Source: Jaminaea rosea
Taxonomy: Eukaryota > Basidiomycota > Exobasidiomycetes > Microstromatales
Length of the DNA stretch: 64,000 nt
Assembly (NCBI RefSeq): GCF_003144245.1
Contig: NW_020289982.1
Coordinates: 124,001 to 188,000, forward strand
Direction: 5' to 3'
Every line of letters starts with the position of its first letter. Position 1 is the first letter of the stretch. The notes beneath the pieces were generated by a model. That model searched no databases and was not told the DNA's origin. It saw only the letters and a list, made by a program, of their open reading frames with translations. Position numbers and translations under genes: made by a program. Positions 7,876-35,171 of the stretch are shown here, piece by piece.

Positions 7876-9683
7876 ATGTCGCGAGAGGCACGCACAGTCA
7901 TCATCTCTCATGGCTCACACACGATCCGTGCAGGTCTGGGCATCCATGAGGTGTTGCGTCAACCTACCGTCAATCTGACGGCTCGCGTCGGCCTCCGCCG
8001 ATCTCAGCTGGAGGGAGGAGAGAATGTCAAGCCGGCAGACTATCTTGTCGGCGCCATCCTAGACGAGGCATTGAGGACACAGACTGCTGAGGACCCTGTG
8101 ACAGTCTCCTGGCCGATGATCGGGGGCGAGATCAGAGATTGGGGAGGAATGGCTGCACTCTGGTGAGCATTCCAGTTATTCCCCAGCCGCCGAGTGTATA
8201 CACTCACACTTCTCTACCCGCCTCGTTCACGCCCAGGTATCACGTCCTCTTCTTCCTCCTTCCCGTCATCCGGTCCTCCAACAGCTCCGTCACCCTCCTC
8301 TCCCTTCCTCCCACCACCATTACCCGCTCCTCATCAGCGCGCATCCACAAGATCTTCTTTGACGAATTCAACACGCCCGCCTTCTGCCTCGTCGATTCCG
8401 CCCTCGCCTCATCATTTGCCGTCGGGCAGATGATGGGAACCGTGGTGGATGTAGGGGCGAGAGGCAGCACAGTAGCATGCGTGATGGATGCGCTTATGGT
8501 GCCGCAGAGCATCAAGAGGTGCGAGGTGGGACTGGGGGAGTGCACGGCCTATCTGGCGGGTCAATTGGGCAGGGATGCCAAGGTCGTTGAGGCGTTGAGC
8601 GGTGTACAAGAGGATGAGGAGGCCATGGCTTCCACTTCCAGCGCTCCGTCCTCGAGACAATCACGTCTCCTACTTGCTCTCGCCCGCGAGCTCTTCGCAC
8701 AAGGGCACGTAGTAGCAGACGAAGCCTCGGCGGCCGCAGGAGGGAGCGGTGCGGGTGCATCAGGCGACCAAGCAGCAGAGGACGATGATGGCAACTTCGA
8801 CGTTCTGGGCGCGCTCACTAGCGGTAGAGAGAAGGAAGCCATCGCGGAGCAGGAGCGAAGGAACAAGGAGCTCGTGGCCCAGGGCAAGGAGCCTGAGCCC
8901 ATGCAGACCGCAGGCGATATGGCAGGGCAGACGATATCGAGTGCCGCGGCTCTGACGGCAGAGAATGGTGATGATGGTGGAGAGGACGATGACGCCACAA
9001 TTAGGGTGCCGTTCAAAGGACGCAACATCCGCGTACCGCGCTCAGCCCTCTCAACGGCTCTCACTCCACTGGTAGACCCCTCCGTCCTCAGCAAAGTAGC
9101 AGCAAGCACCGACCTGCTCGACCTCTTGACTCCGCTTGGCTCATCATCTTCTTCGTCACAGCGCACAGACTGGTCGTCCACCCCCTCCCTCCCAGCAGCA
9201 ATCCACGCCTCAATCTCCACGACTCTCGACGTTGAACGGCGCAATGGTCTCTGGGAGCATCTCATCGTCACCGGCGCGCCCGTTGGGCTAGTCAAGGGTC
9301 TCACGCCAAGCCTTGTAGCAGCTCTACAACGCTATGTCGCCGCAGCCTCCGCCGCTGCCAATGGAGCGCAGGGAGCGGGCGGGCCTGCCGGTCCCGCTGG
9401 GGGAGATGATGACGGGGACGATGGTCCAACGGGGACGTACACGCCTAATACGGCCCAGTCGGGCAAGCTGGCACCAGGACAGCCAAGCAATGTGCGCGCT
9501 CTCCGCACGCCAGACTATTTCAGCGATTTCAAGGAGAGGGTAGACCTGGCACCCTTCCTTGGGGCGACGATCTATGCCAAGCTGGTGTTTGCGGATAACC
9601 AGGCGCGCGGGTATGTGAGCAAGGCCGGGTATGCTGAGCGTGGGCCGGCGGGGGCTTGGAGTGTCATGGCTAGTGACAAGTAG
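7876..9683 (+). CDS. ARP9: Actin-related protein Arp9 (SWI/SNF and RSC subunit)
   Basis: Arp9 is a fungal nuclear actin-related protein that with Arp7 binds the HSA helix of the SWI/SNF and RSC remodelling ATPases. Two exons (7876-8162 and 8237-9683; intron 8163-8236) give 577 residues. The diagnostic match is the C-terminus: TPDYFSDFKE, FLGATIYAKLVF and YAERGPAGAWSVM parallel the end of yeast Arp9 (PDYFPEWK, FLGAQIVSK, MKGPAALWDV). The central TSGREKEAIAEQERR corresponds to Arp9 TSGRDTREVLEERER. The actin fold is divergent, with Gly/Ala- and acid-rich insertions, as expected for this poorly conserved ARP. The ATG at 7876 (MSREARTVII) is the first ATG in this frame. It is in tandem with TDP1, 250 bp downstream. 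Confidence 0.88.
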
Positions 9684-15893: not shown

Positions 15894-16089
15894 GTCCACC
15901 ACAGAACAGTCGAGGATGAAGAACTAAGTCAAGAAGCTGAAACGCGTGGCCCGAGCGCGACAGGACGGAACAGAGAAATCCAGTCGCGGACACAGCGGAG
16001 TGAATGAGGGCGACAGCCACGACCAGCTTTCCTTCCAACCACCACCTCCTTCCCCGCCCCTGAAGCCTCATCATGGTGGATACATCAGC
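15894..16089. promoter_or_regulatory. Divergent promoter RAD5-like / MFS::PIG-T
   Basis: A 196-bp spacer between the RAD5-like ATG (15893) and the first usable ATG of the transporter frame (16090). No specific motif is recognised. Confidence 0.4.
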
Positions 16090-19000
16090 ATGACCTTGTC
16101 CAGCAAGCTTTGCGCACTCAGAGTCGCCCTCTGGGGCCCGCCTCCGGCTTCGGCCCTGGAGGCGAGACTGATTCGCAAGATCGACTTTCTCGTTCTCACT
16201 TTCACTTGTCTCATGTATTGGTCAGTACGCTGGTCAAGCAGCACAGCCCCGTCATTCGCTCTGCTGAAGATGCTCCAAAATTTTCATGCCCCTCCTCAGG
16301 TCCAACTACCTCTCCCGCACCGGCTTCCAATTCGCCTATGTCTCCGGCATGTCAGAGGATCTCTCCTTCCAAGGGAACGACTACTCAATAGCCAACACCC
16401 TCTTCACCGTCGGCTACGTCCTAGGCATGATACCCAATATCCTCGCTCTTCAAGTTGTTTCGCCCCACTACTGGCTGCCGGGGGCAGCCGCGCTATGGGC
16501 AGGGCTGGCAATGTGCCTCGCTGCGGCCAAGAACCCTGCGCAGGTGTTTGCGATTCGTTTCTTGCAGGGGCTCGTGGAGGCAAGTACGTTTGCAGGCTCA
16601 CATTACATCTTGGGATCGTGGTACACGGAGACGGAGATTGGCAAACGCAGCGGAATATTCGCCTCCTCTGCACAGCTTGGCAGTCTCTTCAGTGGAGTCA
16701 TCCAAGGGGGCATCCATACGAACATGGACGGGTATAGGGGCCTGCGCAGCTGGCAATGGCAGTTCCTCCTTGATGGCTTCATTGGCATTCCCATTGCCCT
16801 CTATGGATTCATCTTCTTTCCGGACGTGCCACGCAGGGCGAGAAAGTGGCTCTTGACGGAGGAGGAGCGCAAATTGGCCATCGAGCGTCTCCCTCGCCGC
16901 CAGCAAGTGAAGACGAGGATGGGATGGTCGCTCATCAAGCGCGTGTTGGGCCGATGGCACTGGTATGCCTTTTCCGCATTATTTGCCTGGTCAAGTATGC
17001 TCGAGTCCATTGGCTCAAATGGTCTCTTCGCCCTCTGGCTTCAGGCCGAGAGGTACCCGGTCAGGGATCGCAACTACTGGCCTCTCGCTCTTCAAGCAGT
17101 CGCGATCTCCTCGACTATTATCGCGGCGGCGGTCACAGATCTACCCAGCATCCCGCGCTGGACAGTCAATCCCGTTATGGCCGTCAGTCTGATCTTCACT
17201 AGCATCGTCCTCCTCATATGGACGGTCCCCTTCGGCCTAAAGTTCGCCGCCTTCACCATAGGAGGGATGGGCTACGCGGGACAGGCGACAAATTTCTCGT
17301 GGGCAAACATTGTCTGCGCCGGAGACGAGCAGGAGAGAGCTGTTGTGCTCGCCTCGATGAACATGTGGAGTAGTACGGTGCAGGCGTGGTGGAGCATCGT
17401 CTTCTACCCGGCGACGGACGCCCCGCGCTTCCGTAGGGGATGGATCGCGATGATTTGCATTGCGGTTGTGACGGTCGGCATCGCGTTGACTGTGAGGTGG
17501 ATGGAGTTGAGGGAGAGGAAGCAGCGCGAGGGCGAGGAGGCGGTAGAAGTCGACCAGATGCTGCAGCAGGGCATGACAGTACAGGCGCAAGAAGTCAAGG
17601 ACGAGGAGCCTATCGATCCCTTCGCTGGGGCGGAGAAAGCGTCTACTGTCACGGGACCGCAGCGGCGTCGAACGTCATCAGGGTCACGCCACAGCTCTCA
17701 GTCAAGGCTCATGAGCAGCCTGGCTTTCGTAGCACCCCTGCTGTGTCTCTTCATCGCCGCTCCGAACGCGGCTGCTGCAACATCGGTTCCATCCCTCTTC
17801 GCAGGGGATGACTTCCACGAAGCGCTCCACCTCCGTCCACTCCCCACCGGTCGGGTACAGAGCACCTTCTCTTTTACTCTCACCTCGCCGCACTCGCCCT
17901 TTTCTTTGTCATCGTCGCAAGGTCAGCCAGGTCGGCATTTCGGCCTGCTGCCTGCATCACTCCTGTCGACGATTGAGACATCAGAGCTCCCCATTGAAGA
18001 GCTGAGCTTGAGCTTCAATAAGGGGCGATGGAACTATGAGCGATGGGGGATGCCAACCTTCTTCGACGGGAAGCAGGAATGGGGCTCAGAGATGGTGGCT
18101 ACGGGGGCGGAGGTGTGGGCGCGATATGACTCCACGACAGACCGGGACAATCGTCAGCACCCGCTCGCACATGAGGCAGATGCCTTTCATGGACTGCTCT
18201 CGCGACTTTCGGGCCAATTTTGCTCCACCCTTGCCGCCGCAGGCTCAAGAGAAGCAATCTCCGTCCCCTCCAATCTGACGCGCCCCCTCTTCTCCCGCAG
18301 CGCCAGCGATGACGGCAAACTAGTTCTCCACCTTTCCTCGCCTCCTTCTCCTTGCACCGAGGTCCTCCACCCCATGCTCTCCCTCCTGCCTTGCAAGAGG
18401 GCAGCCGGACTTGCGAGCGTACTGGAGCCGCATAAGTGGTTGGAGACGGAGTGGCACGGCATTGAGCTCAACATTCGTCGACGAAGCGGAGGCGAAGGGT
18501 GGGAGGTAGTAGTCAAGGTAGGAAGCGTGTGGAACGGGGTTGCAAGAAATGGCAAGAGGGACTTCTCCATGAGCAAGATCATGGGGGAGCCGCTACGCTC
18601 GACTTGCCCGCTTGCTAGTAGCAGCTTTGTCACTCTTGTGGCTCCGCAGGATGGGAGCGACTTTACTGCTGAACCTTTGCAGATTGGCGCCTTCATCGAG
18701 GCGGACGCGCAAGGTGGTGACGAGGAGCAGAACGACGCTGAGGACAAGGCTAAGCGGGAGCATCCTCTCATCACCCTGGCGGGCAAGCTACGCAAGGAAG
18801 GACAGCTGCGCTACGACACTGCCTCCTTCCTTTCTACCGCACCCGACCTGGACGTCTCCCTCCAATGGCTCAGCGAAGAGAAGTTCAATTACATTGCCGA
18901 GCGGCTCGTCCTTCCGGCACCCTCCTCTCTGTCCTCTCCAAGCCTCGGCGTACGTCGCTCCTTCATCTCGTCCTCCGCCCTCAGCGGGACCCTGCAACTC

Positions 19001-19657
19001 CACCTCACCAATCCCCGCCCAGACACATCTCGTCGGCTCATTTACAGGGACGTCCTCCCCTGGTTCCTGGACTTCTCCCTCCCTACCTCGCACTCCGTCA
19101 CCACACTCCAGCCTCAAGACCCCAATTCGCCGTACATCCGCTTCGAGTCAGACGAGAAGCGCGATGCGGTTCGAAGGGTGAGCTACACGCCCTCCGCGCC
19201 CAGGAGAGGCCCTGCGGTACTGGAGTTGGAACTCGTCGTCCCGCCTGCCAGTGAAGTGACGTGGAGTGTAGAATTTGACAAGGAGACGCTGCGCTATGAG
19301 GAGCACCCACCCGATGCGCATCGCGGTCTCGACGTAGGCGCTGCGACTGTGTGGGAGGTGGAGGACGACGATGCGCGGGACGACCCGAAGGGCACTGCAC
19401 GACCGCCTCGCCCTTTGCCGGGGAGGGTGTGGAAGACCCAAGTGGGGCTCATCGAGGTGGCAGTGCCCGACTTCTCGATGCCCTACAACGTCATCATCTT
19501 CACTTCGACGATTATTGCCTTGTTCGCAGGAAGCGCGGTGAACATTCTTACGAGGAGATTCACGGATGTCGAGGTGCCGCCGGATCTCGTTAGTGCGGCA
19601 GCTGCGGTGGTAGGCGTAGCGAGTAAGAGGCTAAAGGGCAAGGAAAAGGCGATGTAG
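16090..19657 (+). CDS. In-frame fusion: MFS anion:cation symporter (Fen2/Liz1/Dal5-like) + GPI transamidase PIG-T/Gpi16
   Basis: Two exons (16090-16220, 16300-19657; 79-nt intron, donor GTCAGT, acceptor CTCAG) encode one 1162-residue frame. Residues 1 to about 480 are a 12-TM major facilitator of the allantoate/pantothenate (Dal5/Fen2/Liz1) type: YWSNYLSRTGFQFAYVSGM, RFLQGLVEASTFAGSHYILG, QWQFLLDGFIGIPIALYGF. The frame then runs through about 60 hydrophilic residues with no stop and no good GTNNGT donor into a complete PIG-T protein, starting with its own ATG and signal peptide (17711). I saw no stop codon in the linker when I read it codon by codon. Either the locus makes one fused protein, or two transcripts overlap and the transporter ends by an unrecognised splice, or a stop was lost by sequencing error. 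The substrate cannot be told from sequence; vitamin or ureide anions are typical of the family. Confidence 0.72.
17711..19657 (+). CDS. GPI16: GPI transamidase subunit PIG-T / Gpi16 (module of the fused frame; possible separate gene)
   Basis: PIG-T/Gpi16 is the lumenal scaffold of the ER complex that attaches GPI anchors, disulfide-linked to the protease subunit Gpi8. This module has everything a stand-alone protein needs: an ATG, a textbook signal peptide (SSLAFVAPLLCLFIAAPNA), FHEALHLRPLPTGRV, the LSFNKGRWNYERWG block, the LSGQFCSTL cysteine matching the Gpi8-linked cysteine region, EPCPLAS-like PLRSTCPLASS, VPWFLDFSLPT-type beta strands, and the terminal PDFSMPYNVIIFTSTIIALF membrane helix. 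It is 648 residues, a normal length. It is listed separately because internal initiation or a separate promoter inside the transporter's 3' end would produce exactly this protein. Confidence 0.85.
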   Translation: MSSLAFVAPLLCLFIAAPNAAAATSVPSLFAGDDFHEALHLRPLPTGRVQSTFSFTLTSPHSPFSLSSSQGQPGRHFGLLPASLLSTIETSELPIEELSLSFNKGRWNYERWGMPTFFDGKQEWGSEMVATGAEVWARYDSTTDRDNRQHPLAHEADAFHGLLSRLSGQFCSTLAAAGSREAISVPSNLTRPLFSRSASDDGKLVLHLSSPPSPCTEVLHPMLSLLPCKRAAGLASVLEPHKWLETEWHGIELNIRRRSGGEGWEVVVKVGSVWNGVARNGKRDFSMSKIMGEPLRSTCPLASSSFVTLVAPQDGSDFTAEPLQIGAFIEADAQGGDEEQNDAEDKAKREHPLITLAGKLRKEGQLRYDTASFLSTAPDLDVSLQWLSEEKFNYIAERLVLPAPSSLSSPSLGVRRSFISSSALSGTLQLHLTNPRPDTSRRLIYRDVLPWFLDFSLPTSHSVTTLQPQDPNSPYIRFESDEKRDAVRRVSYTPSAPRRGPAVLELELVVPPASEVTWSVEFDKETLRYEEHPPDAHRGLDVGAATVWEVEDDDARDDPKGTARPPRPLPGRVWKTQVGLIEVAVPDFSMPYNVIIFTSTIIALFAGSAVNILTRRFTDVEVPPDLVSAAAAVVGVASKRLKGKEKAM

Positions 19658-31373: not shown

Positions 31374-31751
31374 GTCGGGATAGCGGTATGAGGAGGAGGA
31401 CGATGAGGGGAAGATGTCGAAGCAAAAGCTCGTGGGAAAGGAGGGAAGGAAGGGGAAAGGAGCTAGCCTAGGGTCCGGTGCTCTCGCCCTCTCGGTGATG
31501 ACGCCAAGGAACGCGGGCGGACACAAATGAGGCGGCGGGCCGGGCGAGCGGAGTGTGACACAATCGAGACCAAGAGTCGTGCGGGACACGGACGGACAGA
31601 GAGGCGAGCAGAGACTCGATTCCTTGGTCTCAGGCACGGCTTGGATATTGGAACGTCTTCGCCTCGCAGCACCGTATCAAGTTTAGAGCTCGACTGGCGC
31701 TACCACGACGACGACGAGTGGAGAGGAGTGAATATCGTCGAGGAGAGCGCG
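31374..31751. promoter_or_regulatory. Divergent promoter Srf1-like / DUG2
   Basis: A 378-bp spacer between the two ATGs. Both frames stay open for part of it (minus to 31637, plus from 31527), but neither extension starts with ATG next to conserved sequence. No specific site is recognised. Confidence 0.4.
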
Positions 31752-34700
31752 ATGAGTCAAGGTATCACGGAGAGGATGCAGGCCACTTCGCTCCTGGATC
31801 CACCTGCGCTGGTCCACACGCTCGCTCACGGCGCACACGACTCGTCAAGCTCATCATCCTCCGTCCTCGCTTTGGCGGTCAGCGCGAGCGACAACGTCAA
31901 TGGAGATGGCCCTCTCATCTTTTCCGCCACCTCCTCTTCAGAATCGATCCACGTCTTCTCCTCTCACACATACCTGTCACACCCAACCACTCCCCAGCTA
32001 CACGGGCACACGTCGTCCATCCTCGCCCTCGAAATCGCCCCCTCCCCTCGCAATTGGCTCTTCAGCGCGTCAGCAGACGGCACGGTTCGGATCTGGGATA
32101 CGATCAGCTTGGAGTGCTTGTATGTGATACTGGTACAGGGAGACGATGAGGAGGACAGCAGTGTAGGAGACGTATTCGCACTGAGGTGGCAGAAGGAGAC
32201 GGAGACGTTATTCATTGGATGCCAAAATACGAGCTTGAGATGGTGCAGCTTGGCCAAGCTGCCGTACTCAAATAGGAGTAGGAGAGTGAGGGGAGCAAAG
32301 GCTACAGACGCTATCGGCAGAGGAGCTCGTTCACGCGCCTCGGGCAGCGACGACGAAGACGAAGACAACGAGCTCGACGCAATATCCTCACCTGCGACGG
32401 CTGCGGCAGGCGCGTCCTCCTCAACCTCTCGCTCCTCCGCCATTCCGATCCCAACACCTCCCCTCGTGCGGCCACACAAGTTCTTTGACTCAGATGCGCT
32501 ACGACAAAGCAACAATGCAGCGACTGCCCAGGCATTAGGGCTCTCATCCTCTTATCCGTCAAGAACTAGCAGCTTCTCCGGCCCGCCATCGCCTGGACCT
32601 CGTACGCCTCCATTGAGCAGCAGGATGGGCCGATATCCTTCTCACCAGGGAAGTCCGGGGCCGAGCGCCCCATCACCGGTACTGCCGGCTGCTCCCAACA
32701 TCGAGGCCCCGCCAGCGATGGGCGCTGATTCTCAGAAGCCAGCGAGGACTGCACGCTACATGCAACTTGGCCCCTCCTGTGTCCTTCCCAACGCACACTA
32801 TGGATACATCTATGCGTTAGCCCTCTCTTCGTCGCCGTCCATGACCTCCTCTACCACACCCCCTCTGCTTGCCTCGGGCTCAGGGGACGAGGATGTTAAA
32901 TTGTGGGCTTGTCCCACGCCATCCTCATCAACGGCGTCGTCAACGAGCTGCCTAGAGCTGGTCTCCACCCTGCCCGGCTCCTCGACCACTAGCGGCGGAG
33001 CAGTCCTTTCACTCGCAACGTGGGGTCAGACCACACTCTTCGCCGGCAAGCAAGACGGCGGAATAGACGTTTGGGATCTGGACACGCGCGCTCTCCTGCG
33101 AACGTTGGAGGGAGGGCACGACGATGATGTGCTCTGCCTTGTTGCGCAAGAGGGTGGGGAAGACGAGGGGGACGGAGCAACTCTCATCAGCGCAGGCGCA
33201 GATGGGCGCGTCTGCCGCTGGGATGCTGGCTTTAGGCTGACACAGCGCTGGAATGCTACGCAGCATCAGCATGGCGGAGCGGGCAGCATTCAAAGCTGTA
33301 CGGTTCTCCCCGCTGAGAAGAGGAGCGGTGCCGGCCTCCGCCTTCTCACAGGCGGGTCAGACGGGCTCATCTCCGTCTGGCAGCTCTCCTCCCATTCCGA
33401 CACCACCGCAGCGACTAACAGCGTCATCAAGCGCGTCGGCTTTGAGCTTGACACCCCCTCCAACACCACCACCACCACCACCACCTCCTCCTCTTCCATA
33501 CGCTCAGCTCCGCGCAACATCTCCTACGATACCCTCCTCCCCTCTCTCGCTGCTTTCGTAGCATTTCGGTCCGTTTCCTCATCCGACTCCTCATCAGAAG
33601 GAGCCGCAACGCAACAGGGATACCACCGCGAGCAGAGCAGGCAATGTGCCTACTGGCTGAAAACCCATCTCTCTTCCCTCGGTGCTAGCCAGTCCCAAAT
33701 CTTGCAGGGCGCTCCAGGCCGGAACCCGCTCGTCCTCGCCACATTCGAGGCTCGCAGTGGGCTTCCGTCAGCGTCCCCCTCGTCAACAAGGAGAAAGCGT
33801 GTGCTATTCTACGGCCACTACGACGTAATCACCGCCCCCTCGACTGGAGGTGGGGGAAGTGGCTGGAGGACGGCATCGCCTTGGACCTTGACGGGGCAAG
33901 ACGGTTATCTATACGGCCGAGGCGTGTCAGACGATAAAGGTCCGATCCTAGCGGTCGCCTCTGCAATTCAGCGTCTCCACTCGCGTCGCAACCTGGAGGT
34001 AGATGTGGTGATGCTCATTGAGGGAGAAGAGGAGAGTGGATCGGCGGGATTCAGGGAATGTCTTGAGAGGCATAAAGGCGATATCGGTGAGGTGGACGTG
34101 GTGCTGTTGAGCAACTCTTACTGGTTGGATGAACAGACCCCGTGTGTTACGGTCGGCATGCGCGGGGTGATCAAGGCGAGCGTCACAGTCTCCAAGCCAA
34201 CCAGGCGCCTCGGACACAGCACAAGCGGGTCACGCTGTGACGCCGCAGGCGGCGGAGGTGGGGACGGGGATGATGTTCACTCTGGCGTGCAAGGTGGCTC
34301 ACTACGCGAGCCTATGCTCGACCTCGTACGACTTCTCGCCCATCTGTCCGATGGCGGACAGCGTGTGCTGGTGCCAGGGTTCTACGAAGATGTGGCGTCA
34401 CTGAGCACAGGAGAGATCAAGGAGTACGAAGAGATCGTACAGGTGCTCAATGAGAATGCGGAGAAGGAAGCAGGAAGCAAAAGCGACAGTTCCTCGCCCA
34501 GCGTCGACTCCCTCATGGCCAGATGGCGCTACCCCTCGCTCTCGCTGCATGGCATCACTTCGTCGTCGGCGAGCACCATCAAGCCGTCCTCCTCTAACAG
34601 TATCAGCAAGTCATCATCCTCGTCGTCCTCAGCTGGACACAGCGGAGCGATCATCCCTGCCCGGGCCACTGCTCATCTCTCACTGCGTCTCGTCCCCAAC

Positions 34701-35171
34701 CAGTCCCTCTCCACGGTACGCAATCAGCTGGAACAATACCTCCACGAGCGCTTCGACGCCGCTCAAATCGAGCTCACCTCCAGCGGCATAGCGCTCCCTC
34801 CCCCACCAGGTCGCAACACACTCACCGTCGACGTCGGCCACGAAGCCGGCTGGTGGGTGGCGGACTCCTCCAGCGCCTACACATCTGCGCTACGCGAATC
34901 CATCCGTCAAGCTTGGTCCTCCTCGGACTCTCCTGCTTCCTCATCGAACAGCCCCACCCTGCCCCTAGCAATCAGGGAAGGTGGCTCCATTCCGGCCGTC
35001 TCTATCCTCGAATCCTTCTTCTCCGCTCCAGCCGTACATTTGCCCATGGGACAGGCCAGCGATAGTGCCCATTTGAGTGATGAGAGGATTCGCTTGTTGA
35101 ACTTGTTGAAGGGGAGGGAGATTGTCATGGGATGGTTGGGAAGGGTGGCGGCACTTGACGATGGAAAGTGA
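31752..35171 (+). CDS. DUG2: Dug2-type glutathione degradosome protein (WD40 + M20 peptidase)
   Basis: Dug2 forms with Dug3 a cytosolic amidotransferase complex that cleaves glutathione by a gamma-glutamyl-transpeptidase-independent route. A single exon, 1139 residues. The N-terminal half is a WD40 propeller (HTSSILALEIAPSPRNWLFSASADGTVRIWD; SGDEDVKLWA; ISAGADGRVCRWD; LTGGSDGLISVW) broken by a Ser/Pro-rich loop. The C-terminal half is an M20 metallopeptidase: YGHYDVI (metal His and Asp), YLYGRGVSDDKGPI, EGEEESGSAGF and VGMRGVIKASVTV, then VHSGVQGG and the terminal AVHLPMGQASDSAHL. About 25 Gly/Asp-rich residues (near 34200-34275) are inserted just before HSGVQGG; I found no splice pair that removes them. 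Start ATG 31752 (MSQGITERMQ). The WD40-M20 order is normal for Dug2. Confidence 0.9.
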   Translation: MSQGITERMQATSLLDPPALVHTLAHGAHDSSSSSSSVLALAVSASDNVNGDGPLIFSATSSSESIHVFSSHTYLSHPTTPQLHGHTSSILALEIAPSPRNWLFSASADGTVRIWDTISLECLYVILVQGDDEEDSSVGDVFALRWQKETETLFIGCQNTSLRWCSLAKLPYSNRSRRVRGAKATDAIGRGARSRASGSDDEDEDNELDAISSPATAAAGASSSTSRSSAIPIPTPPLVRPHKFFDSDALRQSNNAATAQALGLSSSYPSRTSSFSGPPSPGPRTPPLSSRMGRYPSHQGSPGPSAPSPVLPAAPNIEAPPAMGADSQKPARTARYMQLGPSCVLPNAHYGYIYALALSSSPSMTSSTTPPLLASGSGDEDVKLWACPTPSSSTASSTSCLELVSTLPGSSTTSGGAVLSLATWGQTTLFAGKQDGGIDVWDLDTRALLRTLEGGHDDDVLCLVAQEGGEDEGDGATLISAGADGRVCRWDAGFRLTQRWNATQHQHGGAGSIQSCTVLPAEKRSGAGLRLLTGGSDGLISVWQLSSHSDTTAATNSVIKRVGFELDTPSNTTTTTTTSSSSIRSAPRNISYDTLLPSLAAFVAFRSVSSSDSSSEGAATQQGYHREQSRQCAYWLKTHLSSLGASQSQILQGAPGRNPLVLATFEARSGLPSASPSSTRRKRVLFYGHYDVITAPSTGGGGSGWRTASPWTLTGQDGYLYGRGVSDDKGPILAVASAIQRLHSRRNLEVDVVMLIEGEEESGSAGFRECLERHKGDIGEVDVVLLSNSYWLDEQTPCVTVGMRGVIKASVTVSKPTRRLGHSTSGSRCDAAGGGGGDGDDVHSGVQGGSLREPMLDLVRLLAHLSDGGQRVLVPGFYEDVASLSTGEIKEYEEIVQVLNENAEKEAGSKSDSSSPSVDSLMARWRYPSLSLHGITSSSASTIKPSSSNSISKSSSSSSSAGHSGAIIPARATAHLSLRLVPNQSLSTVRNQLEQYLHERFDAAQIELTSSGIALPPPPGRNTLTVDVGHEAGWWVADSSSAYTSALRESIRQAWSSSDSPASSSNSPTLPLAIREGGSIPAVSILESFFSAPAVHLPMGQASDSAHLSDERIRLLNLLKGREIVMGWLGRVAALDDGK

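Follow-up and report, generated by a model that had tools for sequence, protein, structure and literature searches.

A continuous frame joining an MFS transporter to PIG-T/Gpi16 in Jaminaea rosea, a putative precursor of two membrane proteins

Described counterparts and layout of the locus

Viral polyproteins undergo signal-peptidase cleavage. The polytopic protein iRhom2 is reported to be cut in part by signal peptidase beside its first transmembrane (TM) domain, which follows a long N-terminal cytoplasmic part (PMC7618786). A signal peptide relocated inside T. cruzi GP82 is described as uncut, with no mention there of upstream TM segments (PMC6513831). At the level of transcription, genes of the mushroom P. 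crispa that lie on read-through transcripts are reported to be transcribed independently as well (PMC4503453).

Here we describe a locus in a window of 64,000 nucleotides of Jaminaea rosea (contig NW_020289982.1, positions 124,001 to 188,000), where a transporter of the major facilitator superfamily (MFS) runs in frame into the GPI transamidase subunit PIG-T/Gpi16. With iRhom2 (PMC7618786) and the viral polyproteins it would share a signal-like segment away from the N-terminus, whereas the chain here is a putative cellular precursor of two unrelated proteins. With the polycistronic read-through transcripts of mushrooms it would share same-strand neighbors on one mRNA, if it is so transcribed; there, stops in all frames are reported between the open reading frames (ORFs), whereas here the frame is continuous (PMC4503453). 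In the titles and abstract openings of the matches listed by a literature search, no such fusion was described. Searches of viral contigs gave two stretches with a pattern match to the PIG-T protein query (none confirmed) and no match to the transporter protein or conserved motif queries, and prokaryotic genome contigs gave 24 stretches for the PIG-T protein query (none confirmed) and none for the motif query; these collections are uninformative on fungi.

The stop-to-stop frame at 16268-19657 comprises 1129 codons without an internal stop, and the product spliced from 16090-16220 and 16300-19657 has 1162 residues (~128 kDa) and a single, terminal stop (Table 1). The in-frame fusion proposed in the initial annotation is therefore present, with both Pfam domains in one frame. 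The same annotation had the frame running uninterrupted from transporter to PIG-T, which holds as regards internal stops, but a transporter start at 16090 requires an intron at 16221-16299. The frame is continuous across both domains in the sequence, and a single polypeptide is predicted from it. Programmed frameshifting is not needed, the frame being continuous already. In the scoring of candidate introns, the pair 16221-16299 ranked top once donor and branch terms were included, whereas by codon score alone two rival pairs lay slightly above it (27.5 and 27.3 versus 25.9). We prefer it also because the joined protein then reads across TM1 in the manner usual for such transporters.

Table 1. 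Features of the transporter-PIG-T locus (positions in the window)
Feature	Positions	Strand	Description
Upstream ORF (uORF), 7 codons including stop	16073-16093	+	-3 A, +4 G; read from sequence
Transporter exon 1	16090-16220	+	Start codon to TM1 region; other frame than exon 2
Intron, 79 nt, GT-AG (GTCAGT...CCTCAG)	16221-16299	+	Joins the two frames
Remaining MFS domain	16300-17500	+	Pfam MFS_1; TM12 ends at 17494
Linker, first half	17501-17605	+	Acidic, predicted cytosolic tail; coding-like codon usage
Linker, second half	17606-17710	+	Arg/Ser-rich end; codon usage indistinguishable from noncoding
PIG-T Met and signal peptide	17711-17779	+	14-residue h-region; possible cleavage site AAAA|TS; by inspection
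PIG-T/Gpi16 luminal domain, C-terminal TM helix, stop	17780-19657	+	Pfam Gpi16, yeast Gpi16 match

About 196 nt (15894-16089) separate the transporter start from the point where a RAD5-like helicase gene on the minus strand (HIRAN and SNF2 matches) is inferred to begin, and this interval is a probable shared divergent promoter of the two genes. The TGA of the uORF overlaps the transporter ATG (as ATGA), and the uORF could regulate the output of the transporter, and hence of PIG-T, via reinitiation. The PIG-T ATG is likewise part of an ATGA (17711-17714), whose TGA is not in the transporter frame.

In the transporter part, Pfam MFS_1 matched residues 40-403 (E value = 3.1e-28; 99.2 bits versus a cutoff of 33.4) over profile positions 2-341 of 347, i.e., from end to end. 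Twelve TM helices were counted by eye, and six were flagged by a hydropathy threshold scan. With a query lacking exon 1, matches among solved structures were weak (sialin, E value = 0.008), the best NCBIfam match was TIGR00893 (subfamily 2A0114; 114.7 bits versus a cutoff of 395), and no Dal5-specific model was among the NCBIfam matches. We tentatively take the transporter to be of the Dal5/Fen2, allantoate-permease type (anion:cation symporter family). It shares MFS_1 over the full domain with the fungal transporters of this putative type, but the stop after the cytosolic tail is absent here.

In the PIG-T part, Pfam Gpi16 (PF04113) matched PIG-T residues 24-621 (E value = 2.1e-96; 324.1 bits versus a cutoff of 27) over profile positions 6-552 of 571, and solved structures of yeast Gpi16 (9ub7; E value = 1.4e-39) and human PIG-T (E value = 4e-32; human entries 7w72 and 7wld) were matched as well. 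In an alignment whose query included one codon ahead of the Met, residue 6 of the PIG-T described here pairs with human residue 7, and therefore PIG-T appears to retain its own signal peptide. This agrees with the initial placement of an ATG and signal peptide at 17711, the Met being residue 515 of the fusion. The motif PDFSMPYN at residue 1100 is intact, lies before a TM helix, and aligns with yeast and human; in yeast Gpi16, D545, S547, M548, and Y550 of the DFSMPY segment are reported to affect GPI or substrate binding, and GPI16 mutants are reported to be inviable (PMC12786357). Nearly the whole profile, the signal peptide region (human), and DFSMPY are thus alike, whereas the solved entries are separate proteins, some of them fluorescent-tagged, and here a complete transporter precedes in frame. 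We regard the PIG-T part as a putative GPI transamidase subunit.

Openness and composition of the junction

The linker had been described as about 60 polar residues; it is indeed in frame, and it extends over 72 residues from the end of TM12 to the PIG-T Met (residues 443-514, from nt 17495). When the 210-nt linker was resampled by a first-order Markov model, it was open in a fraction of 0.21. Among overlapping windows from nine stretches taken as intergenic, some of which may hold genes, 400 of 1906 were open at 210 nt and 970 of 2284 at 105 nt, and overall the chance openness of a 105-nt stretch was 0.42-0.60. The open junction by itself is weak evidence of fusion, because a 210-nt stretch is open by chance about one time in five; agreement of frame contributes, we infer, a further factor of ~3.

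Codon usage was scored with a model built from 5777 codons in ten stretches with Pfam support in other parts of the window, and the coding windows used as a yardstick come from these same training stretches and overlap one another. The first half of the linker (17501-17605) scores as coding: none of the 536 intergenic windows and a single one of the 5445 wrong-frame windows match its score. The second half (17606-17710) scores low: 38 of 1089 coding windows were equally low or lower, its score was equaled or exceeded by 119 of the 536 intergenic windows and by 1274 of the 5445 in a wrong frame, and another forward frame outscores the fusion frame (0.11 versus -0.06). Scores near zero also occur in parts of the PIG-T start. 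Codon statistics thus support translation to about 17605 but give no such support for the final 105 nt ahead of PIG-T. The transporter tail runs about 37 codons beyond TM12, and the rest reads like a former spacer or a low-complexity linker. The noncoding-like usage of these last 105 nt suggests a young fusion that arose through loss of the transporter stop.

The drop in coding signal after 17605 would also fit a former stop at that point which was lost in the assembly, leaving the two genes as ordinary neighbors. One other frame across the linker has stops at 17544, 17574, and 17712, so that an indel error could hide one. Finished assemblies seldom carry a base error at one particular codon, however, and a one-codon error would leave the missing flank and leader signals described below unexplained; we consider an error of sequence or assembly unlikely.

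Gene borders elsewhere in the window provided a second comparison, for which starts and stops are our own readings of the sequence. The set comprised 14 downstream flanks (that of PIG-T included, and three belonging to ORFs that lack a Pfam match) and 14 other starts (including a kinase and Atx10; from 15 ORFs, Cbf5 and a thioesterase were left out, having no in-frame ATG before the domain). The linker (17541-17710) has an AT fraction of 0.39 versus 0.40-0.54 in the flanks, with a narrow gap at the edge (RSE1 flank, 0.40), and its richest 30 nt reach 0.50 versus 0.57-0.73. Coding DNA averages 0.41 and 0.53, respectively (394 windows), and for the richest 30 nt the coding windows have a 95th percentile of 0.60, which overlaps the range of the flanks. 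Within 250 nt upstream of the PIG-T ATG, the best 60-nt pyrimidine fraction is 0.53, the lowest of 15 starts (0.62-0.85 in the others), and the -3 base is C, whereas 11 of the 14 other starts have a purine there. The 60 nt adjoining the ATG are not extreme (0.48; DUG2, 0.48; kinase, 0.32; Atx10, 0.53). The junction therefore lacks the AT-rich 3' flank and the pyrimidine-rich leader that border the other compared genes, which is stronger evidence than the open frame.

Three other ORFs in the window may be noted. In that at 31467-35171, an M20 peptidase domain comes after WD40 repeats, the arrangement of fungal Dug2. The RSE1-like ORF has 1372 codons and no introns; long intronless ORFs of this kind, taken with the 0.48 introns per gene reported for U. 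maydis (PMC2219887), would point to Ustilaginomycotina. An ORF of 530 codons (8091-9683) aligns with the central part of the actin profile alone (93-189 of 410); it may encode a divergent actin-related protein, or else have further exons that escaped notice.

These border signals bear on whether the locus holds two overlapping transcription units, with the PIG-T mRNA starting inside the transporter gene and any long mRNA being minor or nonproductive for PIG-T. The independent transcription reported for the P. crispa read-through genes (PMC4503453) is a precedent for such a layout, which would also account for the noncoding look of the last 105 nt and for the retention of a Met and signal peptide by PIG-T. 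Yet the 250 nt before that Met offer no pyrimidine-rich leader, a C stands at -3, no AT-rich flank is present, and the transporter frame would still have no stop of its own; a transporter mRNA ending in the linker would be a non-stop mRNA, because the linker frame has none. We regard overlapping units as a serious but doubtful alternative.

An intron at the junction, missed or alternative, might end the transporter or remove the junction. Five inferred introns of the window served as the yardstick: they are 64-79 nt long, score 5 or 6 out of 6 at the donor, contain a branch-like site, and have 10-13 pyrimidines among the 15 nt before AG. This yardstick is partly circular, as donor and branch terms were used in choosing them. 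There are 277 GT-AG pairs of 40-350 nt with donors within 17480-17711; the donor score is at least 5 in 26, all from the donor at 17492, and two of these 26 satisfy all three measures (17492-17732, 241 nt; 17492-17804, 313 nt). Both have a donor score of 5 of 6 and shift the frame to an early stop, and lowering the donor threshold to 4 admits 21 additional pairs (23 in all). Introns of U. maydis are reported to average 170 nt, at 0.48 per gene (PMC2219887), so length by itself is no ground for dismissing the two candidates. On the other hand, they are far longer than the 64-79 nt of the yardstick, each has a single branch-like site that is not CTRAC, and both delete the start of PIG-T. The initial reading that no GTNNGT donor lies at the junction is correct for 17440-17800, and the missed intron that it listed as an alternative finds little in its favor; we judge it very unlikely.

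Topology and fate of the PIG-T signal peptide

When the N-terminus of a 12-TM protein is cytosolic, its tail is cytosolic as well, and by established topology rules a hydrophobic segment after such a tail crosses the membrane with its C-terminal end facing the lumen. The fusion topology predicted from these rules is coherent, with PIG-T in the lumen, where it works. An AlphaFold2 model of the fused frame without exon 1 had a mean pLDDT of 37.4 and was not used.

The initial annotation took the former signal peptide for a thirteenth helix. The coherent topology is in keeping with this, but the 14-residue core and AAAA|TS resemble a signal-peptidase site just as much, and a permanent tether is one of two possible outcomes. 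The segment LAFVAPLLCLFIAA (14 residues) is followed by PNAAAATS, and by inspection it has the 14-residue h-region and the small residues at -3 and -1 of a signal peptide. In wild-type yeast, a model TM segment of 14 Leu with a cleavage cassette is reported to be cut efficiently, and segments of 17 or 20 Leu are not (PMC11579918). The partial cut in iRhom2 (PMC7618786) offers a further analogy for cleavage. Against cleavage, yeast signal peptidase is reported to disfavor n-regions of more than 16 residues (PMC11579918), whereas in the fusion the segment comes after a stretch of at least 72 presumably cytosolic residues instead of a short n-region; the uncut relocated signal peptide of T. cruzi GP82 (PMC6513831) points the same way.

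In a fusion that is produced but never cleaved, the thirteenth helix would tether PIG-T permanently to the transporter. Besides the resemblance of the segment to the 14-Leu segment cut by yeast (PMC11579918), the inviability of yeast GPI16 mutants (PMC12786357) weighs against such an outcome, as an N-terminal transporter would have to be tolerated. By analogy with these systems, cut and uncut forms are both possible, and at least partial cleavage is favored. Without glycans, the computed masses are ~69 kDa for PIG-T, ~60 kDa for the transporter, and ~128 kDa for the uncut chain.

A putative two-protein precursor and its implications

Whether one transporter-PIG-T precursor is made at all appears evenly balanced. 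In its favor are the frame and its domains, the lack of a good junction intron, and the unusual composition of the junction; against it are the noncoding look of codon usage over 17606-17710 and the ease with which 105 nt stay open by chance. A single transcript, translation through the linker, the membrane topology, and the cleavage are all steps that we infer. A precursor cut at least in part may tentatively be given the larger share of that balance, whereas the smaller share, a fusion that persists uncut, is rather unlikely.

Our preferred reading, held tentatively and as a whole slightly more doubtful than cleavage as such, is a two-protein cellular precursor split by signal peptidase at the signal peptide of PIG-T, with the outputs coupled via one promoter and one uORF. 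The transporter stop would have been lost beside a closely spaced downstream PIG-T gene, and the single promoter, divergently shared with the RAD5-like helicase gene, would give one mRNA for the precursor. The transporter part, read as 12-TM, would enter the ER membrane with its tail cytosolic, and the old PIG-T signal peptide would insert as a thirteenth hydrophobic segment, placing PIG-T in the lumen. Signal peptidase would then probably cut after AAAA, at least partly, to release a normal PIG-T and the transporter.

If the precursor is made, it would show that a signal peptide can turn the chance loss of a stop codon between neighbors into a workable fusion, since cleavage by signal peptidase would give both proteins back. 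The arrangement would then represent a simple eukaryotic route to operon-like coexpression of membrane proteins. If the chain remains uncut, a GPI transamidase bearing a transporter would be an unexpected architecture for an essential complex.
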